Below, in pieces: positions 2 through 38,269 of a stretch of DNA of 39,220 bases. Under the pieces are notes generated by a model. The model ran no database searches and was not told where the DNA came from. It worked only from the letters and a program-made list of their open reading frames with translations. Within the stretch, counting starts at the first letter, position 1; the number at the start of each line of letters is the position of its first letter. The position numbers and the translations under genes are program-made. The stretch is taken from positions 1 through 39,220 of the IMG/VR virus record IMGVR_UViG_3300017767_000037; one strand, 5' to 3'. Origin of the DNA: a virus.

Positions 2-223
2 ACAATTCTTGATAATGCCGGGCTTAGCGATAATTTAAGCATGGAACGCAAAGGCTGGGGACGCGATGTTGTAACAGGTAAGCCGACTAATATGATACGG
101 GCTGGTATTATAGATCCGGCCTTTGTTACAAAGACTGCTCTTAAAAATGCGGTATCAGTTGTCAATACAATTATATCTGCTGACTGTATAATCAATAACA
201 TACGACTGGATGAGAGCAATTAA
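2..223 (+). CDS. groEL: Chaperonin GroEL-like protein, C-terminal fragment (5' end outside window)
   Basis: The reading frame is open from base 2, so only the last 73 codons are present. The visible part matches the end of the GroEL equatorial domain: a TILDNAG segment, an acidic glycine turn (WGRDVVTGK), then NMIRAGIIDPAFVTKTALKN and a hydrophobic helix. GIIDP corresponds to E. coli GILDP, whose Asp (D495) contacts ATP, and that Asp is kept. The turn that is NAATEEY in E. coli is DVVTGKP here, so the nucleotide pocket is divergent. The usual GGM-rich tail is missing; the protein ends soon after IINNIR. The next gene is GroES-like and overlaps it by 14 bases, which fixes the functional pairing, although the order groEL then groES is the reverse of the bacterial operon. 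Role by family: ATP-driven folding cage, probably for virion proteins. Confidence is high for the family, low for activity. Confidence 0.85.
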   Translation, partial: TILDNAGLSDNLSMERKGWGRDVVTGKPTNMIRAGIIDPAFVTKTALKNAVSVVNTIISADCIINNIRLDESN

Positions 224-467
224 TTATTTTGTAGTTATTGAAAAAATCAAGGAAGCACCGAAGACAGTAGGTGGGCTTGAGCTTACAGAATCGCAAAACA
301 GCGACGATAGGTACTTAAAGGGTAAAGTAATATCTGCAGGTAACCTGGTTGAGTCGCTTAAAGAAGACGATATTGTTTATTACGACAAGCACAACGGGCA
401 CGGTATACAGTGGAAAGATAAGCTATACCATGTGTTAAAGCTTGCTGATATAGTTTTGGTCGAATGA
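210..467 (+). CDS. groES: GroES-like co-chaperonin (cpn10)
   Basis: This 85-residue protein has the cpn10 layout. It has a first strand YFVVIEKI, then a mobile loop with GGLEL at residues 21-25 where GroES has GGIVL (the hydrophobic tripeptide that docks on GroEL). These are followed by GKVISAG, a DIVYYDKHNGHGI segment and the closing strands YHVLKLADIVLVE. It is shorter than the usual ~95-100 residues because the roof-hairpin region is reduced. The start lies inside the end of the chaperonin gene (14-base overlap, different frame) and its stop overlaps the next ATG (ATGA), so translation is probably coupled. Known role of the family: cap of the GroEL chamber; phage versions such as T4 gp31 adapt the chamber to fold the capsid protein. 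That it serves the adjacent phage GroEL is inference. Confidence 0.9.
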   Translation: MRAINYFVVIEKIKEAPKTVGGLELTESQNSDDRYLKGKVISAGNLVESLKEDDIVYYDKHNGHGIQWKDKLYHVLKLADIVLVE

Positions 468-6129: not shown

Positions 6130-8874
6130 ATGGCGATTAAATTTTTAAATACAGTCGCAGTAGATACAGACGTACTATATGTAGATGCAGCTTCAAATGA
6201 AGTAGGTATTGGTACAACAAGTCCAGATTCTAAACTAGAAGTTGTAGAAGTTAGGTCAGGTACTGGTGCATCTGCTCAAACTAAATACACTTTAGTCTCA
6301 AAATCTACAGTGTCTTCAGGCACACCGGGCACAGGTGGCATAAAAGTACAATATACAGATAGTAGTAATAATGAGCATGGGTTTGGCCTTGTTGCTGGAA
6401 GCACCTCAGCTGACTTCCTTACTTCAGGGCCTATGAATTGGCATACAAACTCTGATTTAAATACTCAGAGTGCTACTGGTTTTGCAATGACTATTGACAC
6501 AAGCCAGCGTGTTGGGATTGGACTTACAAATCCAGGAGCTAGACTTCATGTTAAGGAAACAACCGGATCGACATCAGCGGGTTATGTTTTACGAGTAGAA
6601 AGCGTAAATGGAGGAGGTGACTATTTTAACACATCCGGTTTTTATAAAGATAGCAGTCAAAACATGAGGCTGATACTTAAGTCAAATGTTAGTGGTTCTT
6701 CAGGTGAAAAAGTATTATTAAACTCTAATGGTGATTCATATCTCAACGGTGGTAACGTTGGTATAGGCGCGACGAGTCCAGACGACGGTAATTTGCAAAT
6801 TGGTGATTCAAATACTTCTTTCAATATGGCATTTGCCGGACCTCGTACTAAATTTGGTTACGACGGGTCGTCAAACGCCGTTGTTCAAGGCGGTGCGTCA
6901 AAAGGTATAAAATTTTGTGTAAACAATTCTACATTCGGAAGTGGTGAAGCAATGCGCGTCAATACCTCGGGCAATGTTGGCATCGCTGTAACGGATTTTA
7001 CTACAACATACGGTTCTGTCCCAGATTTAAGGGTTGGTTCTATTAGTGGTACAGGTGCCCCGGGGGTTATAGATATACTTAGAAAAGATGGAACGGTAAC
7101 TGCTGGAGAAACAACTGGGATACTTCAGTTCAGTGTTGATGACGACAATAACTATTGTAACGCTCAAATTGAAGTTGAAAGTGCTTCAACAGTTGGAAGC
7201 GGTAATTCTGGAGGGGGAATATTAAAATTTAAAACAACACCGTCAAGTAGCGGTGGAACCCCTACGGAACAAATGCGCATTGATTCAAACGGCAACGTTG
7301 GAATAGGCGTGTCAAATCCTTCGTCATTTTTTAATCAAGCAAGCAATCTTGTTATTGGTGGTGCGGGAAATATTGGCGCAACAATTTATTCTTCAAATTC
7401 GGGTAATTCTTTTTTAGCTTTTGCTGATGTTGCAGACGGCGCAAATAGTGGTTTTAATGCCGGGGGTTCAATTTATTATGAACACGCAAACAACGCAATG
7501 GTTGCAAGAGTAAACGGTGCAGAACGTTTGCGTATTAATTCAAGTGGTAATGTTGGAATTGGACATACTGATCCTGCTTCTAAACTCCATATTAAGCAAA
7601 ACACTACTGGAACTGGTAATTCAACAGGTTTAATTATTGAACAAGATGGTACTGGTGATGCAATAGCTCAATTTTTACTTACAGGAGCAAGAAGATGGGT
7701 TCTTGGAGCAGATAATAGTGATTCTGATAAGTTTAAGTTAGCATCAACCTCAGATTTAAACACTGATGCTGCACTAACTGTTGATACAAGTGGTAATGTT
7801 GGTATAGGAACAACAGCCCCAGCAGAAAAATTAGAAGTGTCTGGCGGAGCTATTAAAGTAACGAATACTGGTGCGGCTCAATTAATACTAAGAGGTGATA
7901 GTGGTGATTCTGGGGATTCAGGGAATGTAGACGGTATTATTGATTTTATCCATGATCAGGGCTCATATGGCTATAGGCTAAATACTGAAAATTATAGTGG
8001 TAAAAATGCCTTTCATATACAAGACTATCAAAATAGTTCGTATCTATCCAGAATATATATAGACCAAGATGGTGAAGTTGGTATTGGAACAAATTCTCCG
8101 GCTGAAAAACTAGTGGTTTCGGGAACTGATGATGTTAGTATTAGAATAAATTCAACTAGTAACAAAAATTGGACAGCGGATGAATTATTAGGCGCGTATG
8201 AGTTTTATGGCAATGATGCATCTGGAGCAGGCGCTCAAATAAAAGCAAAAATAGATTGTTCGGCAGTAAACGAATATGGCGCGGCGTTTAACATGAGATT
8301 TTTTACCGCCGGAGGGGGGGCTGGTACGTCAGCGGCAGAAAGAATGCGTATTAGGTATGATGGGATTGTTTTAATTGGAAAAACAAGCTCAGGTACTAAT
8401 ACAGCCGGACTTGAATTTAATCCAGTTGGGTTGGCTACAATTACAAGAAGCGGGAACGTGCCATTACTTGTTAATAGAACTACTAATGACGGCACACTTG
8501 TTTCGTTTAGAAGGAGCAACAGTCAAAAGGGTTCAATTAGTATTTCAGGTTCAACAACAGCTTACAATACTACCTCTGATTATAGATTAAAAGAAAATGT
8601 TGTTGACATGGCAGGTTCGCTTGATAGAATCGAACAATTACAACCAAAACGTTTCAACTTTATTTCAGAAGAAACAACTGTTGACGGGTTTGTTGCACAT
8701 GAAGTTCAAAATATAATTCCTGAAGCTGTACTAGGTGAAAAAGATGGTGTTAATGAAAATGGCGAGCCGGAATATCAAGAAATAGATAACTCAAAAATTG
8801 TACCTTTATTAGTTGGTGCAATTAAAGAATTAAAAACAGAAATTGAAAACTTAAAATTACAAATAAATTCATAA
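6130..8874 (+). CDS. Tail fibre with C-terminal S74 intramolecular chaperone domain
   Basis: A 914-residue fibre. Eight copies of a VGIG unit (from NEVGIGTTSP at about residue 23 to GEVGIGTNSPAEKL near residue 652) are spaced irregularly along a Gly/Ser/Asn-rich shaft; this is the trimeric beta-helix type repeat. The last ~99 residues are a Peptidase_S74 domain: the cleavage site is at the Ser of TSDYRLKENV (S816), with the catalytic-dyad Lys at K821, then PKRFNFI, VDGFVAHEVQ and IVPLLVGAIKELK. By family, this domain trimerises the fibre, folds it and then cuts itself off. It lies third in a fibre block, with an almost AT-only leader before its start. Confidence 0.88.
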   Translation: MAIKFLNTVAVDTDVLYVDAASNEVGIGTTSPDSKLEVVEVRSGTGASAQTKYTLVSKSTVSSGTPGTGGIKVQYTDSSNNEHGFGLVAGSTSADFLTSGPMNWHTNSDLNTQSATGFAMTIDTSQRVGIGLTNPGARLHVKETTGSTSAGYVLRVESVNGGGDYFNTSGFYKDSSQNMRLILKSNVSGSSGEKVLLNSNGDSYLNGGNVGIGATSPDDGNLQIGDSNTSFNMAFAGPRTKFGYDGSSNAVVQGGASKGIKFCVNNSTFGSGEAMRVNTSGNVGIAVTDFTTTYGSVPDLRVGSISGTGAPGVIDILRKDGTVTAGETTGILQFSVDDDNNYCNAQIEVESASTVGSGNSGGGILKFKTTPSSSGGTPTEQMRIDSNGNVGIGVSNPSSFFNQASNLVIGGAGNIGATIYSSNSGNSFLAFADVADGANSGFNAGGSIYYEHANNAMVARVNGAERLRINSSGNVGIGHTDPASKLHIKQNTTGTGNSTGLIIEQDGTGDAIAQFLLTGARRWVLGADNSDSDKFKLASTSDLNTDAALTVDTSGNVGIGTTAPAEKLEVSGGAIKVTNTGAAQLILRGDSGDSGDSGNVDGIIDFIHDQGSYGYRLNTENYSGKNAFHIQDYQNSSYLSRIYIDQDGEVGIGTNSPAEKLVVSGTDDVSIRINSTSNKNWTADELLGAYEFYGNDASGAGAQIKAKIDCSAVNEYGAAFNMRFFTAGGGAGTSAAERMRIRYDGIVLIGKTSSGTNTAGLEFNPVGLATITRSGNVPLLVNRTTNDGTLVSFRRSNSQKGSISISGSTTAYNTTSDYRLKENVVDMAGSLDRIEQLQPKRFNFISEETTVDGFVAHEVQNIIPEAVLGEKDGVNENGEPEYQEIDNSKIVPLLVGAIKELKTEIENLKLQINS

Positions 8875-9526: not shown

Positions 9527-9722
9527 TATCGGTAGAGACTATAAAAACGAAGCTATGCATTACGCTGTAGGTCAAGAAGTCTACGGAGGGCATACTATTT
9601 GTGATATAGTTGAAGCTGATGATAAATATAGTATTTATATTAAAAAACATAACGACGTACTGCCCTGGAAAGATTTTAATAAAAACATGGCAGTAGCAGT
9701 AGAATACAACCTAGAATATTAA
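9504..9722 (+). CDS. Small conserved hypothetical protein
   Basis: A 72-residue protein with YAVGQEVYGGHTICDIVEAD, IYIKKHND, LPWKDFNKNM and a C-terminal VEYNLEY. The conserved-looking core begins at the second Met (base 9555), so translation may start there rather than at 9504. The longer form overlaps the previous gene by 23 bases, and neither start has a Shine-Dalgarno. The compact beta-rich sequence resembles small barrel proteins, but there is no assignable function. It precedes the cpn10-like gene, with its TAA overlapping that ATG. Confidence 0.6.
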   Translation: MNLIRKISIGRDYKNEAMHYAVGQEVYGGHTICDIVEADDKYSIYIKKHNDVLPWKDFNKNMAVAVEYNLEY

Positions 9723-10327
9723 TGCGAAGTATATTTAATTTTATTATAGCCCCAAAAAAAGATAGATACAATAATAAAAAATCTATAGGCGATAAAGAAT
9801 TAATACTAAATACCGAAATATCTGATCATAGATATGTAAGCAGAAACGGTGTTGTTCTTGAAACACCTGTTGAAGTAAAAACAGATATTAAAAAAGGTGA
9901 TGAGGTTATATTACATCATAATGTTTTTAGAAGATGGTATGATGTATATGGTGAAGAAAAAAACAGTAGAGGATTTTTTAAAGAAAACGAATACTTTGTA
10001 GACCCATCACAAGTTTTTTTGTATAAACGAAACAAAGAATGGATAGCACCAAAAGGATATTGTTTTGTAAAACCTATTGAATCAATAGATAAATTTGATA
10101 CAAATCCCGAAAGACCTTTAATAGGTATAATAAAGTTTGTAGATAAAGAGCTTCAAAAAAACGGTATTAAAAAAAATGATCTTGTAGGTTTTACGCCAAG
10201 CAGCGAATATGAATTTGTTGTTGATGGCGAAAGAATGTATAGGGTGTTAACCAATTCAATTTCTATTAAATATGAATATCAAGGAGACGAAACAGAATAT
10301 AATCCGAGCTGGCTACAAAGCGGTTGA
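9722..10327 (+). CDS. Probable tandem cpn10 (GroES-fold) protein
   Basis: A 201-residue protein that reads as two successive small beta-barrels. The first (about residues 5-105) has FNFIIAPKKDR, NGVVLETPVEVKTDIKKGDE and VILHHNVF. The second (about 108-190) has PKGYCFVKPIES, PLIGIIKFVDKELQKNGIKK, NDLVGFTPSSEYEF and MYRVLTNSISI. The order 'strand with K/P, G-x-V-x-x-V, K-K-G-D/N-x-V, barrel end' is that of cpn10, and similar proteins in marine phages are called co-chaperonins. No clear GGIVL-type mobile loop is seen, so direct GroEL binding is uncertain. A structural or head-assembly role is equally possible. It sits two genes before the large terminase. Confidence 0.55.
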   Translation: MRSIFNFIIAPKKDRYNNKKSIGDKELILNTEISDHRYVSRNGVVLETPVEVKTDIKKGDEVILHHNVFRRWYDVYGEEKNSRGFFKENEYFVDPSQVFLYKRNKEWIAPKGYCFVKPIESIDKFDTNPERPLIGIIKFVDKELQKNGIKKNDLVGFTPSSEYEFVVDGERMYRVLTNSISIKYEYQGDETEYNPSWLQSG

Positions 10328-10547
10328 TGAGCTTATACATGTTGCAGAAGAAAAAATCATAACAAACACAGAAGATGACGTTTCTGCGGATAGGCTTAAG
10401 AATGCAGCAGCAACTAAAAAGCTTGCGATATTTGACGCGTTTGAGATTCTAAATAGAATAGAAGAAGAAAAGTCAATACTGCTAAATAAACCTAAAGAAG
10501 AAAAAAAACAAGCATTTAGTGGCTTTGCAGAAAAAAGATCAAGGTAA
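10272..10547 (+). CDS. Small terminase candidate / conserved protein before terL
   Basis: A 91-residue helical protein with RAGYKAVDELIHVAEEKI, DVSADRLKNAAATKKLAIFD, AFEILNRIEEEK and a C-terminal SGFAEKRSR. Proteins with this SADRxKNAAAxKKLAIFDAFEIL pattern lie directly before the large terminase in related marine phages. That position and the all-helical, charged nature suit a small terminase subunit, but no DNA-binding motif is proven. It starts 56 bases inside the previous gene, an unusually long overlap, and no later in-frame ATG exists before the conserved part. Its TAA overlaps the terL ATG by one base. Confidence 0.5.
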   Translation: MNIKETKQNIIRAGYKAVDELIHVAEEKIITNTEDDVSADRLKNAAATKKLAIFDAFEILNRIEEEKSILLNKPKEEKKQAFSGFAEKRSR

Positions 10548-12766
10548 TGTACGAGCAAACTTTATTTGAGGTTATTGAACCGATTAAAATAAACACGCTC
10601 AAACGTCACAACAAAGCGCGTAGATGGAAATATGGCTATGATAAAGAAAATGATATTGTAGTTATCAGTAAGACAGGGCAAATTGGCAATGTGTATAGCA
10701 TACAAAATTTAAAGATTGCGCTGCCACCTATGCCTACAAATATTACTAAGGGTGAAAACAAATGGTTTAAGCGTGAATACCCTAAAGAGTTAAATAGAAT
10801 AAAAACAATCTTTGACTGGAAAAACTATCCGGAAGAATTCAAAGATCAATGGGAACCATATATAGATGAAGAGTTTAAAAGACGCGATGAGGGTCATTGG
10901 TTCTATAACAAGAACAAGCCTACTTATATTACTGGCACTCATTACATGTACCTGCAGTGGAGTAAGATTGACGTTGGGGCCCCTGAATTTAGAGAAGCAA
11001 ACAGATTATTCTTTATATTTTGGGAAGCATGCAAAGCCGATTCACGGTGTTATGGAATGTGCTATCTCAAAAACAGACGCTCTGGCTTTTCATTCATGGC
11101 ATCATCAGAAGCTGTTAACATGGCAACAATATCGTCTGATTCACGGTTTGGCATACTGTCCAAATCTGGGGCTGACGCTAAGAAAATGTTCACAGATAAA
11201 GTTGTTCCAATATCCGTTAACTACCCGTTCTTTTTTAAACCAATACAAGACGGTATGGATCGTCCCAAAACCGAGCTCGCATATAGAGTACCCGCTTCAA
11301 AACTCACGCGTAAATCTATACAGTCAGGGCAGACGCGGGAAGAGCTACAAGGGCTTGACACCACAATTGACTGGAAGAACACGGGCGACAACTCCTATGA
11401 CGGCGAGAAGCTCAAACTCCTCGTACACGACGAATCGGGTAAATGGGAACGGCCGGACAATATCCTCAACAACTGGCGAGTCACGAAGACAACGCTAAGG
11501 TTAGGTAGCCGGGTTATTGGTAAATGTATGATGGGATCTACAAGCAATGCTTTAGACAAAGGCGGCGAAAACTTTAAAAAACTATATTATGATTCGGATG
11601 TTACAAAGCGAAACGCCAATGGGCAGACTCGCTCAGGACTATATTCTTTGTTCATACCTATGGAATGGAACTACGAAGGATTCATTGATTCTTTTGGAAA
11701 CCCTGTCTTTGATACGCCGCGAAAACCGATTGAAGGTCCGTATGGAGACCTTATTGAGGTCGGAGTTATAGATCATTGGAACAATGAAGTTGATGGCTTA
11801 AAAGGAGACCAGGACGCCTTAAACGAGATGTATAGGCAGTTTCCGCGCACAGAGGAGCATGCTTTTAGAGACGAAACACAAAATAGTATATTTAACCTTG
11901 CAAAAATATACGAACAAATAGATTACAATGACGATATATATTCATCGGCAGGTGTAGCGCAAGGAAGCTTTAGCTGGGCAAACGGAATAAAAGATAGCAG
12001 TGTTGTGTTCACACCAAACCCAAACGGCAGGTTTAAAGTAAGTTGGGTACCACCTACAAATCTTCAAAACCGCGTAATAGAGAAAAGAGGGGTGTTATAC
12101 CCCGGAAACGAACACGTCGGCGCGTTTGGTTGTGACTCATATGATATATCAGGAACAACAGACGGCCAAGGTTCAAAGGGTGCACTGCACGGATTAACCA
12201 AATTTAGTATGGAAGAGGCTCCTGCAAATATGTTTTTTCTTGAATATATTGCACGGCCTCAAACAGCTGAAATGTTTTTTGAAGATGTATTAATGGCATT
12301 ACACTTTTACGGTATGCCAATACTCGCAGAAAACAATAAACCTAGATTATTATATTATTTAAAGCGTAGAGGCTATAGAAAGTTTTCAATTAATAGACCT
12401 GACAAAACTTTTAACAAGTTATCTACTGCTGAAAAAGAAATAGGCGGAATGCCAAACTCAAGTGAAGATATTAAGCAGGCTCATGCAGCTGCGATAGAAT
12501 CATACATACAAAAACATGTGGGATTAACAGATGAAGGAACATATGGCCAAATGTATTTTAATGGTACACTTAATGATTGGGCCAAGTTTGATCTAAACAA
12601 AAGAACAAAGTTTGACGCAGCGATTAGCTCAGGGTTAGCTATTATGGCATGCAACAGGCACTTGTACTCACCTAAACAAGAAAGAGAAAAACTAAGTCTA
12701 AGTTTTAATATAGCTAAATATAAAAACGAAGGCATGAAATCAAAATTAATAAATAATTATGGCTGA
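10547..12766 (+). CDS. terL: Terminase large subunit
   Basis: A 739-residue packaging motor. The ATPase half starts after a conserved HWFYNKNKPTYITGTHYMYL block. The Walker A position carries CYLKNRRSGFSF (about residues 172-182), a deviant loop without GKS/T. Walker B is LKLLVHDE, with D295-E296. The nuclease half has a first acidic site at FGCDSYDISG (D530, D533) and a last one at NKRTKFDAAISSGLAIMAC (D690), the usual RNase-H-like order. By family it translocates and cuts concatemeric DNA at the portal. The sequence style is that of crAss-like and related marine phages. The portal gene overlaps its end by 8 bases. Bases 11281-11520 are clearly richer in GC (about 51%) than the surroundings. 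Confidence 0.93.
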   Translation: MYEQTLFEVIEPIKINTLKRHNKARRWKYGYDKENDIVVISKTGQIGNVYSIQNLKIALPPMPTNITKGENKWFKREYPKELNRIKTIFDWKNYPEEFKDQWEPYIDEEFKRRDEGHWFYNKNKPTYITGTHYMYLQWSKIDVGAPEFREANRLFFIFWEACKADSRCYGMCYLKNRRSGFSFMASSEAVNMATISSDSRFGILSKSGADAKKMFTDKVVPISVNYPFFFKPIQDGMDRPKTELAYRVPASKLTRKSIQSGQTREELQGLDTTIDWKNTGDNSYDGEKLKLLVHDESGKWERPDNILNNWRVTKTTLRLGSRVIGKCMMGSTSNALDKGGENFKKLYYDSDVTKRNANGQTRSGLYSLFIPMEWNYEGFIDSFGNPVFDTPRKPIEGPYGDLIEVGVIDHWNNEVDGLKGDQDALNEMYRQFPRTEEHAFRDETQNSIFNLAKIYEQIDYNDDIYSSAGVAQGSFSWANGIKDSSVVFTPNPNGRFKVSWVPPTNLQNRVIEKRGVLYPGNEHVGAFGCDSYDISGTTDGQGSKGALHGLTKFSMEEAPANMFFLEYIARPQTAEMFFEDVLMALHFYGMPILAENNKPRLLYYLKRRGYRKFSINRPDKTFNKLSTAEKEIGGMPNSSEDIKQAHAAAIESYIQKHVGLTDEGTYGQMYFNGTLNDWAKFDLNKRTKFDAAISSGLAIMACNRHLYSPKQEREKLSLSFNIAKYKNEGMKSKLINNYG

Positions 12767-15182
12767 ATCAGTTGTAAAAGGTTATTTTCCAAGCCAAACG
12801 CTTAGCGACGCAGAAAAAGCTAGTCCGAATTTCGGGAAAGACGTTGCTAGAGCAATAGAGCATGAATGGTTTAAAAAAGATTCTGCTGGAAACCGTTTTT
12901 ATATTAATCAAAATCATTTTCACAAATTGAGATTATATGCGCGCGGAGAGCAATCTGTGCAAAAATATAAAGATGAATTATCAATAAACGGTGATTTATC
13001 TTATCTTAATTTAGATTGGAAACCCGTGCCTATTATACCTAAGTTTGTAGATATAGTAGTTAATGGCATGGCTAATAGATCATATGACGTAAAAGCATAT
13101 TCACAGGACCCTTTCGGTGTAAATAAAAGAACTCAGTATATGGAAAGTATATTGAGAGATATGGCAGCTAAAGAGCTTGACTCATATATTCAGGCCGAGT
13201 TTGGTATGCAAACTAAAGAAAGTGGAATTACTGATCTACCATCTAATCAAGACGAGTTAGATTTGCATATGCAGCTTAATTATAAAGAAGCTATTGAAAT
13301 AGCTGAAGAGCAGGCGATTACAACAACATTTGAAAAAAATAGATACGAGCTTACTAAAAAGCGCATGTATTACGATCTAGCTGTTTTAGGTATTGGCGCC
13401 GTAAAAACAACATATACTAATTCTGAAGGAATAACAATAGACTATGTTGATCCTAGCAACTTAGTTTATTCATATACTGATTCTCCTTATTTTGAAGATA
13501 TATATTATATAGGCGAAATAAAAACAATACCTATTAATGAATTGAAAAAACAATTTCCAAATTTAACAAATGAAGATTTGGAAAAACTAGCAGGAGGTAG
13601 CTATTCTAACTACAAAGCTTATAATAAATTTACAACCACAAAAAACAGAGATGATAATAATACGGTTGATGTATTATATTTTAATTATAAAACTTTTCAC
13701 AACGAGGTATATAAAGTTAAAAATACAGTAACAGGTGCTGAAAAAATTATAGTTAAAGATGAAAGCTTTAACCCGCCTATAGACCCTCGTGCTAGGTTTG
13801 AAAGAATAGCCAGGAATATAGAAGTATTATATGATGGGGTGTATGTACCAGGAGCTAACATGCTATTAAAATGGCAACTATGCGAAAACATGCTACGCCC
13901 TAAAAGCGATGCCGCAAAAGTTAGAATGAATTATTCGGTCGTGGCGCCTCGTATGTATAATGGGCGTATTGAATCTTTGGTTAGTAGAATTACTACATTT
14001 GCCGATATGATTCAAATAACACATTTAAAGTTACAGCAAGTAATGTCACGTATGGTACCTGACGGTGTTTACTTAGATGCTGATGGTCTTGCTGAAATAG
14101 ATTTGGGTAATGGCACAAACTACAACCCACAAGAAGCGTTAAACATGTTTTTTCAAACTGGTTCTGTAATTGGTAGATCATTTACATCTGATGGTGATAT
14201 GAACCCAGGCAAAGTGCCTATTCAAGAAATTAATTCAAATAGCGGCAGTAATAAAATAGCTTCACTTGTAAGTACATATAATTATTATTTGCAAATGATG
14301 AGAGACGCTACTGGATTAAATGAAGCTAGAGATGGAACAGCTCCAGATCCGAAAGCTTTAGTTGGTGTGCAAAAATTAGCAGCCGCTAATAGCAATACAG
14401 CTACTCGGCATATACTACAAAGCGGTTTATTCCTAACGGCTGAAACTGCTGAAAAAATATCATTACGAATATCTGATGTTATAGAGTACTCACCATCTAG
14501 AGAAGCATTTATACAGGCAATAGGTATTCATAATGTATCTGTGTTAGCTGAGCTGGGGGAACTTCATTTGCATGACTTCGGTATATTTATTGATTTAATG
14601 CCGGATGAAGAAGAAAAACAAAAGCTTGAAAACAATATACAGGCTGCATTGAGTGGAGGTCTTGTTGATTTAGAAGACGCTATTGATCTTAGAGAAATAA
14701 AAAATGTTCAATTAGCAAACGAAATGCTAAAAGTACGACGCAAGAAAAAGCTAGAACGGGATCAACAAATGCAACAGCAGAATATTCAAGCACAGTCGCA
14801 AGCCAATGCTCAGGCGCAGCAAGTCGCCGCGCAAGCTGAGGTTCAAAAACAACAAGCTCTTACGTCTCAAAAAGCAGAATTAAAACAATTAGAGTCTCAA
14901 CTTGAAATGCAAAGATTAGCCAATGAAGCTAACCTTAAAAAAGAATTAATGAAGCTTGAGTTCCAAATGAATATGCAGCTTAAGGGGTTAGAAGTTGAAA
15001 CTGCTAAGTCTGCTATAAAAGAAAAAGAAGATCGCAAAGACGAGCGAACAAAAATACAAGCATCGCAGCAGAGCGAGCTTATAAGCCAAAGAAAAAACAA
15101 TTTACCGCCAAAAGTATTTGAATCTGCAGGAAATGATATACTTAGCGGTGATTTTGACTTAGGTTCTTTTGAACCCAAGTAA
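12759..15182 (+). CDS. Portal protein
   Basis: An 807-residue protein. It is placed between terL (8-base overlap) and the scaffold and capsid genes, and contains the portal-type core FHKLRLYARGEQSVQKYKDE, YLNLDWKPVPIIPKFVDIVV near residue 85-105, and TGLNEARDGTAPDPKALVGV around residue 520. The last ~150 residues form a long Gln- and Lys/Glu-rich coiled coil (QMQQQNIQAQSQANAQAQQ onward), with a hydrophobic-acidic end (ILSGDFDLGSFEPK). It is longer than most portals because of that tail. By family it forms the dodecameric ring through which DNA enters and leaves, and docks the terminase and head-tail connectors. The closest style is crAss-like portals. Confidence 0.88.
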   Translation: MAESVVKGYFPSQTLSDAEKASPNFGKDVARAIEHEWFKKDSAGNRFYINQNHFHKLRLYARGEQSVQKYKDELSINGDLSYLNLDWKPVPIIPKFVDIVVNGMANRSYDVKAYSQDPFGVNKRTQYMESILRDMAAKELDSYIQAEFGMQTKESGITDLPSNQDELDLHMQLNYKEAIEIAEEQAITTTFEKNRYELTKKRMYYDLAVLGIGAVKTTYTNSEGITIDYVDPSNLVYSYTDSPYFEDIYYIGEIKTIPINELKKQFPNLTNEDLEKLAGGSYSNYKAYNKFTTTKNRDDNNTVDVLYFNYKTFHNEVYKVKNTVTGAEKIIVKDESFNPPIDPRARFERIARNIEVLYDGVYVPGANMLLKWQLCENMLRPKSDAAKVRMNYSVVAPRMYNGRIESLVSRITTFADMIQITHLKLQQVMSRMVPDGVYLDADGLAEIDLGNGTNYNPQEALNMFFQTGSVIGRSFTSDGDMNPGKVPIQEINSNSGSNKIASLVSTYNYYLQMMRDATGLNEARDGTAPDPKALVGVQKLAAANSNTATRHILQSGLFLTAETAEKISLRISDVIEYSPSREAFIQAIGIHNVSVLAELGELHLHDFGIFIDLMPDEEEKQKLENNIQAALSGGLVDLEDAIDLREIKNVQLANEMLKVRRKKKLERDQQMQQQNIQAQSQANAQAQQVAAQAEVQKQQALTSQKAELKQLESQLEMQRLANEANLKKELMKLEFQMNMQLKGLEVETAKSAIKEKEDRKDERTKIQASQQSELISQRKNNLPPKVFESAGNDILSGDFDLGSFEPK

Positions 15183-30453: not shown

Positions 30454-33400
30454 ATGAACGATAAAGCATTGGAATATGCATTCGGTCTGTTTCAACAGGA
30501 CGGATATACAGGTACATTAGACGAATATAAAGAACTTATTGGTAAAGATCAAGAAGCTTTGAATTATTCGTTTGATTTGTTTTCTAATGATGGATATTCT
30601 GGAAATAAAGATCAATTCTCAGCATTGGTTATGCCGGGAAAGACAGAACCCATGGCTCCGGGTGTGGCTGTGGAGGAAACTGCAGCACCCGATCTCGTAA
30701 GTACGGAGTTACAATCGGAGGCTGGTTCTTTGGCTTTACAAGAAACTGAATTAACCACAGCTCAATCAATTAAAAATTCTTTTTCCAACATGTTTGAGCA
30801 GCTAGGCGATGTTGTTGAATTTTGGGGTGCTGATGAGGGTCAGGGTTCGGCATTAGATATTGCAACTAATACTGTTGCGGCTTCTATATTTGGCCAAAAG
30901 AAAATTGACGACTACGCAGCCAAAACTTCTGATTATGTTAGCGGTGGACTTGGAACAGAAGCTACTGTTGAGGCTATGAAAGAATACGAAAAAGAATTAG
31001 CTCAAACAAAAAGAACAAAAGGAATTATTGAAAGTGCTAAAGAAGGTGATGTAGGGGGAATGTTTGCAGGGACTGTAAATGCTGTTACAAATGCTCTTGG
31101 CTCAATTGGGTACACATTTGGCACTTTATTTACTGGAAATGTTGTTAACTATATAGCCAATAACTATGTAGAGTACAATAAACTAAAGGCTAAAAATTTA
31201 AATTTAGAGGTTAAAGATTTAATAAAACAAGGCAAGGCTGATACCGCGGCCCCTATTTCTATGGGTATATTAAGCGGGTTATTAGAAAACATAGGTAGTT
31301 CAACAATAGCAGGAAGTGCTGTTAAAGGTTTAGCCGGAAAAACTTCTTTAGCTGGTATAAACAAAAAAATTGCTGAAAAAATATTTTATGATAAGAATGC
31401 GAGGAGGGTTGCTAATATAGTATCAACAGGGTCTACAGAAGCGGTAACTGAAATATTGCAGCATGCATCAGACGAAATAAACGTAGAGCTTGGTAGCGTT
31501 GCAGGAACTGATGATAGCGCAAAAGTTATGTCTACATTTTTTGACGCTGTAACAAGCGAAGAAGGGCTGGAAGCTGGCCTCCAGGGGTTTTTAGGTGGTA
31601 GCGGATTATCAGCTGGATCTTATTCAGCAAAAGCTTTAAATACCGTAAGACAAACTACTAACTTAAAACAAATTGACGGTCTTATACAGGAGTTACATAC
31701 TCTTCGTAAAAACTATACGGGTGTTACAGATCCAACAGCTAAAAAAGGTATAGAGCAAAATATTAATACTGTTGAACAAAAGCTTTCAGATTCAATTGAT
31801 AAAGGTAACTTAATATACGAGTCATTATCTGATGAGCAGGTTTCTGAAATAGAAAGTATAACTGATTTAGCAAATACAGCTGCTAATGAAATTACAGAAT
31901 TAAATAAAAAATTTAGAGCAGGAACAATAAATAAAACAGAATATGCTACCGCGTTTAATGGGTTTAAGTCTCAATACGAAGGCGCAAGAGATAAGTTAGT
32001 TAGTTTAAAACTTGAAGAAAATATTTCATTAGCAAAAGAAGAAGCCGCTAAAAGAGGCACAGTAGTTCAAGCTTTTGAGACTAATGAGGAATATGCAAAA
32101 GAATATAAAAAGCTAACCGGCAAAGACGTGGCCAACTCAAACGGTGTGTTTTTAGGTAAGGGTAAAATACTCATAAATAAAGAACTAGCTAGAGAAACTT
32201 TTTCTATTAACGTTGGAAAGCACGAATTACTACACAACGTTTTAAATGCTGTTGTTGGCAATGCTACTGAACAGCGGAAAGCTGTGAGAAAATTGCAAAA
32301 AGCAATGACCGTTACGCAGCGCAGAGAGGTTAATAAATTATTAAAAAGAAAAGGAATAAAAGCAAATTCATCTACCTATTATACAGAGTACATGAATGGC
32401 TTTTCTGATCTTTTAGCAACCGATAGAGTAGGGTTTGATAAGACTGCTTTTGAAAAAATAGGTGGTGCGCTCGTTAGTATATTTAGACCCGTAGGTTTTG
32501 AAAATATGGGTTTTGCTTCCGGTCAAAGTACATATAACTTTATAAAAGAATATAGTAAAGCAAAAGGCCCCGAGTTTGCTAATGTTGTTCAAACCGTTGC
32601 TGGAGATATTAATTTAGCAGATGTAAAAGCTTTTGCAGGTTCTCAATTTGATGAAGAAATTAAAGCTCAAGTGCAAGCTTTAGGACAAGTAGAATTAAAA
32701 CCTGAAGACACACAAGGGTTATCTGAAAACGAAATAGCTAAACTTAAAAATGAAAAATGGAAAAAAGGATTAGCAGAAGAAGCTATAGGCGAGTTATATG
32801 CTAGCGGTATATTAAATAGATTAATTGGTAGCAAAATAACATTTAAAGATAGAGGCTTACCTGATTTTAAAGAAGATGACTTTATAATGGGCGCAATTGA
32901 AGAATTAATACCTCATATTCGTAATTTTAAGCCAGGTCAAAATGATAACTTATCTGGCTGGATTAATTCTCAATTAAATAACAAAATAAGTCAAGCAAAG
33001 AAAACTGGCAAAGTTGGAACTAAACAAAAGTTTGAAGAAAGCTTAAGCGCTGTAACAGAAGAAGGCCAAGAAAGATTTCAAATAGAGTCTAACTATTTGG
33101 ACGGGGCATCTTTATTACAAATTAGAGCAGAAGAAGAAGCTTTACAGAAAGAAAAAATAAATCCTATAGCAGAATTTTTTGATGAAGACCGGCAAATAGA
33201 ACATTATGGCAGAACTGTTACAGCTATAAATCAACTTAGCGAAGAAGAATATGAAAACTTAACATTTGCGGATATGCCTGATATGGTTCCTGAAATGACT
33301 GCGGAGTTATTTGGCATAAAAATAAATGCATATTTAGGCGTTAACAAAGAAGGAAAAGAAACATCTTCAAACTTTTCAGGTGACAAAACACCAGCACAAT

Positions 33401-36400
33401 CATTTATATATGAGAATGCTGATAAACTAATCAGAATATTACCTAATGGTGCAATTTTAGAAGGGGATACTGCTAAAGAAAATTTAATAAACACTGGTCT
33501 TAAAATACCTAGAAAAATACAACAAGCTTTTTATGAGCAGCAAGGTAGAGTTACTTTAGGAGCAGGCTTAGCACCTTTTAAGCTTAAAGATAATATAACT
33601 AAAAAAGATTTTTTAGCCACATTTGGTATATCTACAGATGGTAAGTTTGCTGATTTAAAAAATGGTGAGCCCAGAGCTATAGCAATGCTTGCATTAGCAA
33701 GGCTTATGGGTAGAATAATGAGTAATACATCTGTTAGAGTTGGCGTAAATTTAACACTAGAACAAGAGCAAAACTTAAAAGCTGGCACAAGTGTAGGGCA
33801 ATTTGATTTAGAAGCGGGGCGTGAGCTAACAGCTAGAGACGAAGCTATAGTATACGACGTATCAAAAAGTTTAATAAAAAACATAGATAGCATATTAAAA
33901 AGTAACGCAAAATTATTGCTTAAGCAAGGCGTAAACGTAGAGGAACTTGACACAGCAAATATTTTAATAGTTGACAAACCAAAAGGCAAAGGACAAGCTG
34001 CGGATTTTTATAAAGCAAAAAACTTTTTTGAAAATGCAACAGAGCTAGCAAAAGGCATTGATCCTTCAATTGGTAAAATGCGAACTTTTTCAAGAAATAT
34101 ATTTGGCAACTGGCGAGACACTGGTTTAGGCTTTAAATATGACTCTAGTGATTATAAAGTAATAGTAAAAGACGAACAAGTTCTTTTATATGAAGATGGC
34201 AAAGGTAAAAAAGATATAGACAAGATATTAGAGATATCAAGTGCTAAAAGTATAAACAACGCATTTGATTCTGGGGTTGCTCCTTGGGTACAAAATAGCA
34301 CAAAAAAATTAGTAGAAAAGTATAAAAAATCTCTTAAAGAAAACCCTACTATAGGTAGAGCATATTCACCTAATTCATCAAATAAAATTGCTACTCAGAA
34401 GAAAAATTTACGTCCTAAAAATACAGAAAAAGACGCTCAAAACACAGACGAAGCGCTATCAAAACACAATTCTACTAATAAATTGTTAGCAGAATCAGTT
34501 GTAAGTACATATAGAGACTTTTATCATTTTGGTCCAGGCAATAAAATTAATAGATTAAAAACAATTATAATAATCTTAGTGGCTAATAGGAATTCTGTAA
34601 ATGGCCTACGCTCATTATCAGAAGTTGTTGGTGTTGTTTGGAGCCCGTCTGAAACAAAAGCTTACCATATGGAGCACATTGAATCTATTGCTTCTATTGT
34701 TTCTAATTTATTAAAACAAATAATTTCAAGCCCTGACACCGAAATAAAGTTTGAATCTAAATCTATGCTTGTGCCTAAAGAAGTAGCTATTAAAAGAGAC
34801 GCAACTCAAGAAAGCAAATTTAGCACAAAAGCTTTTAAAAGCATATTAAAAAATATGCTAAATGACGAAAACAATGATTTAGAATATTACGGGCGGCAAT
34901 ATGACAAAGCTGAAGTAATAAACGATATGATAACCCGAAGCGTTCCTGAGGGTAAAGCAGCTTTTGAAAAAATTAGCAAAGAAGACAAATTTGAAATGGT
35001 TGATGTGGTCACACGCCAAATGTTCCCCGAGTCTACCAACCAACCAATGGGCAGCTACCAATCATTAAACCCTGAACAAAGAAAACAAGTATTTGACAGG
35101 ATGCAAGATGTTGGTATGATTGCACCAGAAGCACAATTTGATTTAAGAGAAGACATATCTCAAAAAATTAGCAATAAATCAAATATAGCGGCTACTGCTG
35201 AAATATCTGAAAAGAAAGCGAGACTATTAGGTAAAGGTAAAGGTAAATGGAAATTCTTTATACCACCATCTGCTGATGACTTTGCGGGCCTTATGTATTA
35301 TATGGTTGGTAAAGGCAAAAAAGGAGATGAGGATTTAGCGTGGTTTAAACAAAATTTATTTGATCCTTTTGCTAAGGGCATAAATGAGTTTAGCACATAC
35401 AGGCAGTTTACAATGAACCAATTTAGAGGAATGAAAAAACTTTTAAGAGGTAAAAAAGTAAAACTAAAAGCTAAAAACTCTACTGGATTTACAAATGAAG
35501 TTGCGGTAAGAGTATATGTATGGGCTACAAATGGCTATGAAGTACCAGGCCTTTCTGAAGCAGAAGTAAAAGAAATGGTTAATATTGTTTCTAATGATTC
35601 AAGCTTAAGAAACTTTGCTGGACAAATTATAAACTTAACTAATTTTGCAGAAACACCTGCTCCTGAAAAAAGCTGGGATGGGGGTACACTAACTACGGAT
35701 ATTCTTGATTACTTAAACACATCGTCAAGAGAAAAGTTTTTAGAAGAATACCTTTCAAATGCAGAAGAAATATTTGGTAAGTTTGGACAGAGCGGCGAAA
35801 TAGAAGGCAATACTGCAAATAGATTGCGTGCAGCATTTGGCGATAACTATGTAGAAGCATTAAGCGATGTTCTTTATAGAATGAAAACAGGTAGACGTAG
35901 AATTAGTGGCTCAAATAGATTAACAAATCAATTTGTAAATTGGATTAATGATTCTGTTGGTGCTATTATGTTCTTTAATACAAGATCTGCGTTATTACAG
36001 CAACTGTCTTTTGTTAACTTTGTTAACTTTGGTGATAATAATCCGCTAGCAGCAAGTCGCGCTTTTATAAATCAACCACAATTTTGGGGCGATTATGTAT
36101 CGTTATTTAATTCTGACTTCTTAAAAGAAAGACGATCAGGCTTGAAAACCGACGTAAACGCGGACGAGATTGCAAGAGCAGCAGAAGAAGGTAGAAACCC
36201 CGTAAGAGCTGTTATAGCGTCATTACTTAAAAAAGGTTTTTTGCCTACACAAATTGCTGACTCGCATGCAATAGCATTAGGCGGCGCGTCATTTTATCGC
36301 AACCGATTAAATAGGTATGTCAAAGAGGGAATGACGCAAGAGGACGCGGCTAAGCAGGCATTTGTTGACTTTCAAGAAATAGCTGAAGAAACACAGCAAT

Positions 36401-37188
36401 CTTCACGTCCAGACCGCATATCTATGCAGCAAGCAAGCGGTTTAGGGCGCCTTATATTAGCTTTTGCTAACACACCTATGCAATATGCTCGCTTAACAAA
36501 AAAGGCTGCTTTAGATTTGATTAATCGAAGAGGTGATTGGAAAACAAACCTTAGCAAATTAATGTACTACGGTGCTGTGCAGAACGTAATCTTTTCTTCT
36601 TTACAAACAGCTTTGTTTGCATTAGCGTTTGATGACGAAGAAGAAGAGAAAACTAGAAACAGATATTTTAGAATAGCAAACGGTACAGCTGACGGTTTGC
36701 TTAGAGGTTTAGGATTTGGTGGTGCTGCGGTTGCTGCTGGTAAAAATATGGTGCTTGAAGGTGTTAGACAATCTAAATTAGCAAGGCCAGATTACGAAGA
36801 GGTGGCATACGAAGCCTTAAAGCTATCACCACCTATTAGCTCTAAAATAGAAAAGTTAGCGTCAGCAGGTAGAATGTTTACATATCGCAACACGCGGGAA
36901 AAAATGAAAACGGCTGGGTTTACGTTAGACAACCCAGTATTTGAATCAGCAGGAAAAATTATATCCGCAACTACTAATTTACCAGCAGATCGCGTAATAC
37001 GTAAATTAGATAACCTTTCTACACCTGTGCGCCAAGATGTTGAAACTTGGCAGGCTGTTTCGCTAGCTTTAGGTTATAGTAAATGGGATGTTGGATTGAT
37101 AGAATCAAAAGCTAAAAAACCGCAAACATCTACAACAGGATTAAAGAAAGTTAAAAGAAAAAAATTAGAACGTAAAAAATTAAACTGA
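30454..37188 (+). CDS. Giant polyvalent internal virion / ejection protein
   Basis: A 2244-residue protein, by far the largest here. The N-terminus has two copies of an A-L-x-Y-x-F-x-L-F-x-x-D-G-Y-x-G unit (about residues 4-27 and 33-58), followed by a GC-rich Pro/Ala/Glu linker (30631-30720). Residues about 200-300 are hydrophobic (ALGSIGYTFGTLFTGNVVNY). A zinc-peptidase motif follows at H590-E-L-L-H594 (KHELLHNVLNAVV). A region near 810-845 has NDNLSGWINSQLNNKISQAK. Near the C-terminus (about 1820-2060) come FFNTRSALLQQLSFVNF, FLPTQIADSHAIALGGASFY, ETQQSSRPDRIS and FANTPMQYARLTKKA, which match the conserved C-terminal region of large polyvalent phage proteins (LPD38-like in my recollection), then a hydrophobic helix. 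The third gene of the gp14/15/16-like set; likely ejected and cell-wall acting. Confidence 0.72.
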   Translation: MNDKALEYAFGLFQQDGYTGTLDEYKELIGKDQEALNYSFDLFSNDGYSGNKDQFSALVMPGKTEPMAPGVAVEETAAPDLVSTELQSEAGSLALQETELTTAQSIKNSFSNMFEQLGDVVEFWGADEGQGSALDIATNTVAASIFGQKKIDDYAAKTSDYVSGGLGTEATVEAMKEYEKELAQTKRTKGIIESAKEGDVGGMFAGTVNAVTNALGSIGYTFGTLFTGNVVNYIANNYVEYNKLKAKNLNLEVKDLIKQGKADTAAPISMGILSGLLENIGSSTIAGSAVKGLAGKTSLAGINKKIAEKIFYDKNARRVANIVSTGSTEAVTEILQHASDEINVELGSVAGTDDSAKVMSTFFDAVTSEEGLEAGLQGFLGGSGLSAGSYSAKALNTVRQTTNLKQIDGLIQELHTLRKNYTGVTDPTAKKGIEQNINTVEQKLSDSIDKGNLIYESLSDEQVSEIESITDLANTAANEITELNKKFRAGTINKTEYATAFNGFKSQYEGARDKLVSLKLEENISLAKEEAAKRGTVVQAFETNEEYAKEYKKLTGKDVANSNGVFLGKGKILINKELARETFSINVGKHELLHNVLNAVVGNATEQRKAVRKLQKAMTVTQRREVNKLLKRKGIKANSSTYYTEYMNGFSDLLATDRVGFDKTAFEKIGGALVSIFRPVGFENMGFASGQSTYNFIKEYSKAKGPEFANVVQTVAGDINLADVKAFAGSQFDEEIKAQVQALGQVELKPEDTQGLSENEIAKLKNEKWKKGLAEEAIGELYASGILNRLIGSKITFKDRGLPDFKEDDFIMGAIEELIPHIRNFKPGQNDNLSGWINSQLNNKISQAKKTGKVGTKQKFEESLSAVTEEGQERFQIESNYLDGASLLQIRAEEEALQKEKINPIAEFFDEDRQIEHYGRTVTAINQLSEEEYENLTFADMPDMVPEMTAELFGIKINAYLGVNKEGKETSSNFSGDKTPAQSFIYENADKLIRILPNGAILEGDTAKENLINTGLKIPRKIQQAFYEQQGRVTLGAGLAPFKLKDNITKKDFLATFGISTDGKFADLKNGEPRAIAMLALARLMGRIMSNTSVRVGVNLTLEQEQNLKAGTSVGQFDLEAGRELTARDEAIVYDVSKSLIKNIDSILKSNAKLLLKQGVNVEELDTANILIVDKPKGKGQAADFYKAKNFFENATELAKGIDPSIGKMRTFSRNIFGNWRDTGLGFKYDSSDYKVIVKDEQVLLYEDGKGKKDIDKILEISSAKSINNAFDSGVAPWVQNSTKKLVEKYKKSLKENPTIGRAYSPNSSNKIATQKKNLRPKNTEKDAQNTDEALSKHNSTNKLLAESVVSTYRDFYHFGPGNKINRLKTIIIILVANRNSVNGLRSLSEVVGVVWSPSETKAYHMEHIESIASIVSNLLKQIISSPDTEIKFESKSMLVPKEVAIKRDATQESKFSTKAFKSILKNMLNDENNDLEYYGRQYDKAEVINDMITRSVPEGKAAFEKISKEDKFEMVDVVTRQMFPESTNQPMGSYQSLNPEQRKQVFDRMQDVGMIAPEAQFDLREDISQKISNKSNIAATAEISEKKARLLGKGKGKWKFFIPPSADDFAGLMYYMVGKGKKGDEDLAWFKQNLFDPFAKGINEFSTYRQFTMNQFRGMKKLLRGKKVKLKAKNSTGFTNEVAVRVYVWATNGYEVPGLSEAEVKEMVNIVSNDSSLRNFAGQIINLTNFAETPAPEKSWDGGTLTTDILDYLNTSSREKFLEEYLSNAEEIFGKFGQSGEIEGNTANRLRAAFGDNYVEALSDVLYRMKTGRRRISGSNRLTNQFVNWINDSVGAIMFFNTRSALLQQLSFVNFVNFGDNNPLAASRAFINQPQFWGDYVSLFNSDFLKERRSGLKTDVNADEIARAAEEGRNPVRAVIASLLKKGFLPTQIADSHAIALGGASFYRNRLNRYVKEGMTQEDAAKQAFVDFQEIAEETQQSSRPDRISMQQASGLGRLILAFANTPMQYARLTKKAALDLINRRGDWKTNLSKLMYYGAVQNVIFSSLQTALFALAFDDEEEEKTRNRYFRIANGTADGLLRGLGFGGAAVAAGKNMVLEGVRQSKLARPDYEEVAYEALKLSPPISSKIEKLASAGRMFTYRNTREKMKTAGFTLDNPVFESAGKIISATTNLPADRVIRKLDNLSTPVRQDVETWQAVSLALGYSKWDVGLIESKAKKPQTSTTGLKKVKRKKLERKKLN

Positions 37189-37323: not shown

Positions 37324-37500
37324 ATGGCAAAGGATAAAATGTATATGAAAGAGGACGCGATGTACATGAAAAAAGGGGAAAAAGATTTTAAGCCTCATAT
37401 GATGTACTGTGGAAAAAAAGGAAAAGCTTTTAAAGCTAAAACATTTGCAGAGCATATTGCTTTGAAGAAAAAAGGATGCGGGCATAAAAAACCTAAGTAA
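37324..37500 (+). CDS. Small putative zinc-finger protein
   Basis: A 58-residue Lys-rich protein. The C-terminal half has MMYCGKKGKAFKAKTFAEHI then ALKKKGCGHKKPK. A Cys, a His, and a later Cys-x-His in order give one possible CHCH zinc site, though spacing differs from classical fingers. The N-terminal half has repeated MYMK-like units (DKMYMKED, DAMYMKKG). The gene starts one base after the previous stop, and its TAA overlaps the next ATG (TAATG). Such tight spacing implies translation as one unit. Function unknown; nucleic-acid binding is plausible. Confidence 0.6.
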   Translation: MAKDKMYMKEDAMYMKKGEKDFKPHMMYCGKKGKAFKAKTFAEHIALKKKGCGHKKPK

Positions 37501-37784
37501 TGGCCGATCCAAAAAAAGGTACAGGTAAAAAACCTAAGGGTTCTTCTCGTAGACTATATACAGACGAAAACCCTAAAGATACTGTTAGTATAAAATATAA
37601 ATCGGTTGCTGATGCTAACGCAACTTGCAAAAAAGTTATGGGATCTAGTAAATCTTTTGCTAGAAAAATACAAATATTAACAGTAATGGAGCAAAGAGCT
37701 CGTTACGGTAAAAAACCTAAGCAATCTAAAATAGCTACAGCCTGTAAAAATAAATTAAGAAAAAAGCATGGCAAAAAGACCTGA
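37500..37784 (+). CDS. Small basic conserved protein (SSRRLYTDENPKDTVS type)
   Basis: A 94-residue protein, strongly basic, with KKPKGSSRRLYTDENPKDTV then SIKYKSVADANATCKKVM and RARYGKKPKQSKIATACKNK. The RRLYTDENPxDTVSxKF opening is shared by small proteins of marine phages and large DNA viruses in my recollection; function unknown. It is predicted to be helical in the second half. Its start overlaps the upstream stop, and its end overlaps the next gene by 17 bases. Positive charge and lack of signal peptide fit a cytoplasmic or packaged nucleic-acid-binding protein, not proven. Confidence 0.65.
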   Translation: MADPKKGTGKKPKGSSRRLYTDENPKDTVSIKYKSVADANATCKKVMGSSKSFARKIQILTVMEQRARYGKKPKQSKIATACKNKLRKKHGKKT

Positions 37785-38013
37785 ATGGAAAGATAGTGAT
37801 GCTCCCGATGCGGAAGGTAAATTTAAGAAGCTATCCTGTGGTGATCTTGCAAAATGGATGATTAAAAGTAGAAAAGGTAATAAAAAGAAAATTATCGGAA
37901 GCTTGAATCAACAATACGTTTTTAATCGTAAAAAAAATCCTAGCTATGCTAAAAAAATGGTCTGCACAAGAAACAAAGTAAATAAAATATTAGATGGCAG
38001 TAAGAAAAACTAA
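37768..38013 (+). CDS. Small basic conserved protein (WKDSDAPDAEGKFKKLS type)
   Basis: An 81-residue protein with PEWKDSDAPDAEGKFKKLSC, GDLAKWMIKSRKGNKKKIIG and SLNQQYVFNRKKNPSYAKKM. The order DAPDAxGKFxxLS, LAxWxIxxRKG, SLNQQxxFNRKKNPxYAxKM is a recurring small family of phages and large viruses (recalled); it is helical and basic. Function unknown. Overlaps both neighbours (17 and 20 bases), so all five short genes in this run are coupled. Confidence 0.65.
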   Translation: MAKRPEWKDSDAPDAEGKFKKLSCGDLAKWMIKSRKGNKKKIIGSLNQQYVFNRKKNPSYAKKMVCTRNKVNKILDGSKKN

Positions 38014-38269
38014 AAAAGGTGCTGCTCTGCGTAGATGGTTTAAAGAAGAATGGGTTGATGTCCGTACAGGTAAACCATGTGGCAGAAGAAAAGGTGAAAA
38101 AAGAGGCGTGCCATATTGCCGTCCTAAAAAACGTGTGTCTAGCGCTACACCTAAAACAGCATCTGAAATGTCTGCTTCTGAAAAGCGTAAAAAAATAGCT
38201 GAAAAGAAAAGACTGGGGCAGCCAGCTGGTAAGCCTCGTCGTGTTAAATCTGTAAAGAGAAGAAAATGA
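37994..38269 (+). CDS. Small basic conserved protein (WVDVRTGKPCGR type)
   Basis: A 91-residue Lys/Arg-rich protein. Key blocks are LRRWFKEEWVDVRTGKPCGR, RRKGEKRGVPYCRPKKRVSS and KTASEMSASEKRKKIAEKKR, ending KSVKRRK. The W-V-D-x-x-T-G-K-P-C-G-R ... Y-C-R-P pair of cysteines recurs in small marine phage proteins of unknown role. The Cys pair could form a metal or disulfide link between two halves. The stop overlaps the endolysin ATG (ATGATAA), so it is coupled to lysis-gene translation. No function can be assigned. Confidence 0.65.
   Translation: MAVRKTKKGAALRRWFKEEWVDVRTGKPCGRRKGEKRGVPYCRPKKRVSSATPKTASEMSASEKRKKIAEKKRLGQPAGKPRRVKSVKRRK

Follow-up and report, generated by a model that had tools for sequence, protein, structure and literature searches.

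A groEL-groES gene pair and a predicted double-domain co-chaperonin in a marine phage contig, probably flavobacterial

A virus contig that opens in the last part of a groEL gene, overlapped by groES, raises the question of whether the pair is a working phage chaperonin and which proteins it would fold. An earlier note on this DNA suggested a dedicated chamber for virion proteins. The contig, a linear virus record, is 39,220 bases long and is here called the window; its end falls inside groEL. The features at this end are the following.

2 to 223, + strand: groEL, last 73 codons and stop, with an open 5' end (the contig stops short of the 5' part)
104 to 118, + strand: GIIDP motif, its Asp at the position of E. 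coli D495 (ATP contact)
210 to 223, + strand: 14-nt groEL/groES overlap, ATGAGAGCAATTAA, containing the start of groES and the stop of groEL
210 to 467, + strand: groES, complete, 85 aa, roof shortened (Cpn10 39.6 bits, cut-off 21.1)
270 to 284, + strand: GGLEL mobile loop of GroES, from the sequence

The first frame had been read as a chaperonin C-terminus with a GIIDP motif, and family searches agree. It matches Pfam Cpn60_TCP1 over positions 432-488 of 490 (35.6 bits, cut-off 34.3) and the GroEL family PHROG 5725 over positions 475-538 of 540 (45.1 bits), covering the final 12-13% of the Cpn60 family. The protein ends in ...RLDESN, and the GGM repeat is absent, as the note had said. The complete GroES with its GGLEL loop and the gene order, reversed relative to bacteria, were also described correctly: E. 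coli has groS then groL, whereas the window has groEL then groES. The reported 14-base overlap is found exactly in 59 of the 81 distinct GroES of related loci, most others having 1-28 nt. Since it is kept in this way, the overlap is not a matter of chance.

Two scans of IMG/VR provided these relatives, with 37 loci found through GroES and 80 through the GroEL C-terminus. The order groEL-groES is common to about 115 viral loci. The C-terminal fragment as query gave 156 confirmed viral-contig matches, and a full GroEL matched 264 phage records, a few of which are bacterial records or unannotated fragments. The statement that phage GroELs are rare is not supported by these counts; published work likewise reports viral GroELs to be common in the ocean (PMC5332604, PMC9611531).

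Another explanation for these genes in a virus record is that host chromosomal DNA was mis-binned as viral. No point in its support was found. Against it, the groEL-groES pair shares its contig with holin and tail-fibre genes and with the two packaging genes below.

10547 to 12766, + strand: terminase large subunit (PHROG 6681, 557 bits)
12759 to 15182, + strand: portal protein (PHROG 6547, 510 bits)

Phylogeny gives the same answer. In a maximum-likelihood tree of 64 GroELs, including 42 bacterial ones (15 of these from Bacteroidota), the window's relatives form one viral clade (100/98) outside the clade of all 42 bacterial GroELs (100/99); several isolate phages sit on long branches, and their exact places are unsure. 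The nearest bacterial GroEL among the matches listed is 42% identical. The gene thus does not fall among host sequences, and the phage origin proposed earlier stands. With this gene context and tree position host contamination is ruled out, its probability being negligible.

The terminase and portal have their nearest matches in phages of Flavobacterium, Cellulophaga, Maribacter and Tenacibaculum and in Manatee Spring phage ctfjg026 (MW202828.1), a circular genome of 60,850 bases whose terminase is 62% identical. These matches suggest a flavobacterial host and a genome of about 60 kb; the phage is marine.

Because the window holds only a 73-codon fragment of groEL, its ATPase has to be judged from relatives. 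The closest three, L009, L010 and L011, have GroEL C-termini 93-99% identical to the window's. Their GroEL is 523 aa long, without stops, and is followed by the same overlapping groES, so that by proxy the upstream gene is not interrupted, a possibility the earlier note had raised. Across the relatives, intact GroELs measure 514-542 aa, and groEL always stands directly before groES. Among 78 distinct full-length phage GroELs, K51, D52, D87, T89, T90, I150 and S151 are invariant, as are R395, D398, GGG414-416, D495 and P496. D87 of this ATPase set belongs to the GDGTTT motif; the window itself holds the D495 region only. Intact ATPase residues in a full-length groEL are thus found by proxy. Judged from sequence, the relatives' proteins are group I chaperonins in their ATPase residues and in their uninterrupted length of about 520-550 aa. 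The best PDB match of the lineage's GroEL is an ancestral FCB chaperonin.

A further alternative is that the pair is degenerate or a mere passenger and has no function; in the window's own sequence groEL is indeed a fragment only. Between close relatives, dN is 0.035-0.08 against a dS of 0.57-1.29 for groES, and 0.08-0.20 against 0.82-1.23 for groEL; dN/dS is about 0.06-0.25 on groEL, groES and the second co-chaperonin described below. Such values indicate purifying selection on all three genes. The full-length frames, the invariant ATPase residues and dN/dS below 0.2 all argue against decay, and a split groEL frame is the exception. The sole such case seen is locus L093 (8652-10219), where the frame is divided into 55 and 479 aa, possibly by an assembly error. 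On the strength of open frames, invariant residues and purifying selection gene decay is rejected, and a functionless pair is very improbable.

The lid differs from that of E. coli mainly in its roof. The window's GroES has 85 aa and the E. coli protein 97; a deletion of 9 residues at the roof hairpin accounts for most of the difference, so the earlier description of it as short is accurate. An AlphaFold2 model (pLDDT 90.5) has no strand between residues 44 and 54, and Foldseek matches it to Cpn10 structures and to T4 gp31. By family match, fold and hydrophobic mobile loop the protein is a Cpn10. In the tripeptide within GGLEL the outer two residues are hydrophobic and the centre is Glu in most relatives, the usual form there being L-E-L compared with I-V-L in E. 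coli.

T4 gp31 lacks the roof hairpin and forms an enlarged cage with GroEL. For the expanded gp31-GroEL cage, a statement in PMC9611531 cites Clare et al. 2006. The deletion and the predicted model place the window's GroES with gp31 in its roof, which would have no beta-hairpin. Both have a viral Cpn10 fold with a reduced roof (structure 1g31 against the model: TM 0.67, E 1.4e-3), although gp31 is longer. T4 encodes only the lid and uses host GroEL. This second gp31 trait, capping host GroEL for a phage that encodes none, is not found here: in the window and its relatives groEL immediately precedes groES.

Changes on the GroEL side may suggest a private pair. The GroES-contact residue L234 is replaced by Q in 71 of the 78 phage GroELs; together with the altered mobile loop, this is the pattern that a private GroEL/GroES pair would be expected to show. 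Co-adaptation of GroEL residue 264 with GroES residue 26 was considered but is not supported. The two are paired in 69 of 73 cases (Ala/Thr with Glu/Asp, Met with a hydrophobic residue), yet the pairing rests on about three tree changes and the paired test was uninformative (median p = 1).

The contacts between rings have also drifted. The inter-ring residues K105, R452 and E461 are not conserved among the 78 proteins, 75 of which lack the E434 loop. From these changes, single-ring operation appears possible, and the double-ring cycle of E. coli may not apply to this GroEL. Single-ring operation is known for some phage chaperonins (PMC5934643). Phages EL, OBP and AR9 resemble the window's lineage in encoding GroEL-like proteins with altered ring-ring behaviour (PMC7185714, PMC5934643, PMC9598537). 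The EL chaperonin is about 22% identical to GroEL, failed with E. coli GroES and has no known phage GroES (PMC7185714). In the window's lineage, unlike in EL, groES adjoins groEL, and the GroEL is closer to bacterial GroEL.

The earlier note passed over a second co-chaperonin gene, which precedes the terminase gene by about 220 nt.

9722 to 10327, + strand: second co-chaperonin, 201 aa, predicted double-domain Cpn10-like (PHROG 13932, 74 bits)

The window's protein has no Pfam match. In its homologues from phi18:3 and phi38:1, the C-terminal half passes the Pfam Cpn10 cut-off with 32.6 and 28.2 bits. The best PDB match of its AlphaFold2 model (pLDDT 83.5) is the tandem chloroplast Cpn20, 7ekq_R, aligned over both halves (E 9.7e-5, TM 0.51-0.53). 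This alignment spans 207 columns with 16% identity and an rmsd of 7.1. The N-terminal half has a loop-like motif L-I-L-N-T-E, whose counterpart in phi18:3 is SGLELHAD. The mobile loop of the C-terminal half is recognisable in phi18:3 (SLIYIPEDNKEK) and unrecognisable in the window's version, which in this differs from Cpn20. A profile comparison of the two halves was weak, with no convincing sequence match, and a PDB search with an alignment profile of the protein recovered no GroES at the sequence level. The prediction of two Cpn10 domains therefore rests on the fold model for the N-terminal half and on distant homologues for the C-terminal half.

The position of this gene is constant, the terminase following it in all 80 viral loci found with it (matches 220-626 bases apart, most 220-240). 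GroEL is absent from 6 of 12 viral contigs checked, all of them linear records and possibly fragments. The complete circular genome of phi18:3 (L207, KC821620.1) is clearer: it carries the double-domain gene and another, single Cpn10, and no GroEL was detectable in it. The double-domain gene is therefore independent of a phage GroEL. Existing annotations name individual copies cpn10 or GroES, and cpn10 counts among the core genes of Pervagoviridae (PMC8776804); no paper describing a double-domain co-chaperonin in phages was found, in a search with incomplete literature coverage. One speculative and rather doubtful reading is a chloroplast-like set of GroEL, single lid and Cpn20-like double lid, in which the double lid would be linked to the terminase-portal operon and couple capping to assembly of the packaging machine.

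The lids of phi18:3 show that this phage group's co-chaperonins can act without a phage GroEL. This lends something to the idea that the phage GroES mainly caps host GroEL, like T4 gp31, while the phage GroEL works without GroES. Within the window's lineage, however, groEL and groES always overlap or adjoin, and such a division of labour is improbable.

The more probable reading, held with reasonable though not full confidence, is a phage-lineage group I chaperonin operon with an ATP-driven GroEL and its own gp31-like lid. Translation of the two genes is probably coupled by the 14-nt overlap. GroEL would form an ATP-driven ring with the catalytic residues seen in the relatives, and the phage's own GroES would cap it, its shortened roof perhaps leaving a roomier chamber. 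By analogy with T4 gp31 and gp23, the likeliest clients, late in infection, would be the phage's own proteins for the virion, the tail fibres or packaging. The double-domain co-chaperonin near the terminase may serve the phage's chaperonin or the host's.

The choice of clients is where this reading meets its main competitor, in which the pair boosts proteostasis in general and serves proteins of both host and phage, such as replication enzymes, without favouring virion proteins. The chaperonin genes of phi38:1 and immuto adjoin DNA polymerase genes and not structural genes, and in the window about 9 kb separate the pair from the terminase. Between them, on the same strand, lie holin and tail-fibre genes among others, which places the pair in a late-looking region. 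A general booster is unlikely, but it is a serious contender. For the operon reading, a chamber dedicated to virion proteins, as first suggested, is plausible by analogy.

How new is such a pair? The window offers a good example of a kind already known in many ocean phages. In 2017, 36 environmental genomes of phi38:1-like Flavobacteriaceae phages were reported to encode GroEL (PMC5332604); GroEL and GroES occur together in Maribacter phage Panino (PMC11590407), and elemo phages are already annotated with groEL-groES in the window's order. The phi38:1-like phages (Callevirus) belong to the same phage group by terminase and portal. Like the window's phage, phi38:1 has its own GroEL and Cpn10 and a double-domain Cpn10 before the terminase; unlike it, cpn10 precedes groEL with one gene between, and its GroEL is 38% identical to that of L009. 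Flavobacterium phages elemo (Elemovirus) and MW202828.1 are closer in arrangement, with groEL then groES, adjacent or overlapping, and a double-domain GroES before the terminase. Their GroELs are 36-37% identical to the window lineage's, and in elemoA the pair and the terminase are on opposite strands.

Gene order has been linked to the phylogeny of viral GroELs by Marine et al. 2017, in the summary given by PMC9611531. In the present tree, phages with groES before groEL (immuto and phi38:1) lie nearer the bacteria and those with groEL first lie elsewhere, which agrees with such a link, subject to caution over long branches.

To our knowledge, laboratory work has covered only a few phage chaperonins, most of them with no lid known. 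The pairs of this lineage are compact and encoded together, their contacts with the lid and between rings are altered, and their roof is reduced; cultured relatives exist in elemo, phi38:1 and Panino. The predicted double-domain co-chaperonin beside the terminase, kept in phi18:3 without GroEL, makes a lid role in building the packaging machinery directly testable.

Other genes of the window deserve brief mention. The tail fibre at 6130-8874 has 914 aa (PHROG tail-fibre matches), and its C-terminus resembles, in sequence, a self-cleaving endosialidase-type chaperone domain. A single ORF of 2,244 codons at 30454-37188 matched neither Pfam nor PHROG at the thresholds applied, and its late position suggests a large protein inside the virion. 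Four small proteins very rich in lysine and arginine (1262-1549, with DUF6321; 37500-37784; 37768-38013; 37994-38269) are possibly DNA-binding or capsid-associated. Finally, the small protein at 904-1272 contains an EHEMMH stretch and weakly matches the phage metalloprotease family PHROG 87 (E 0.002).
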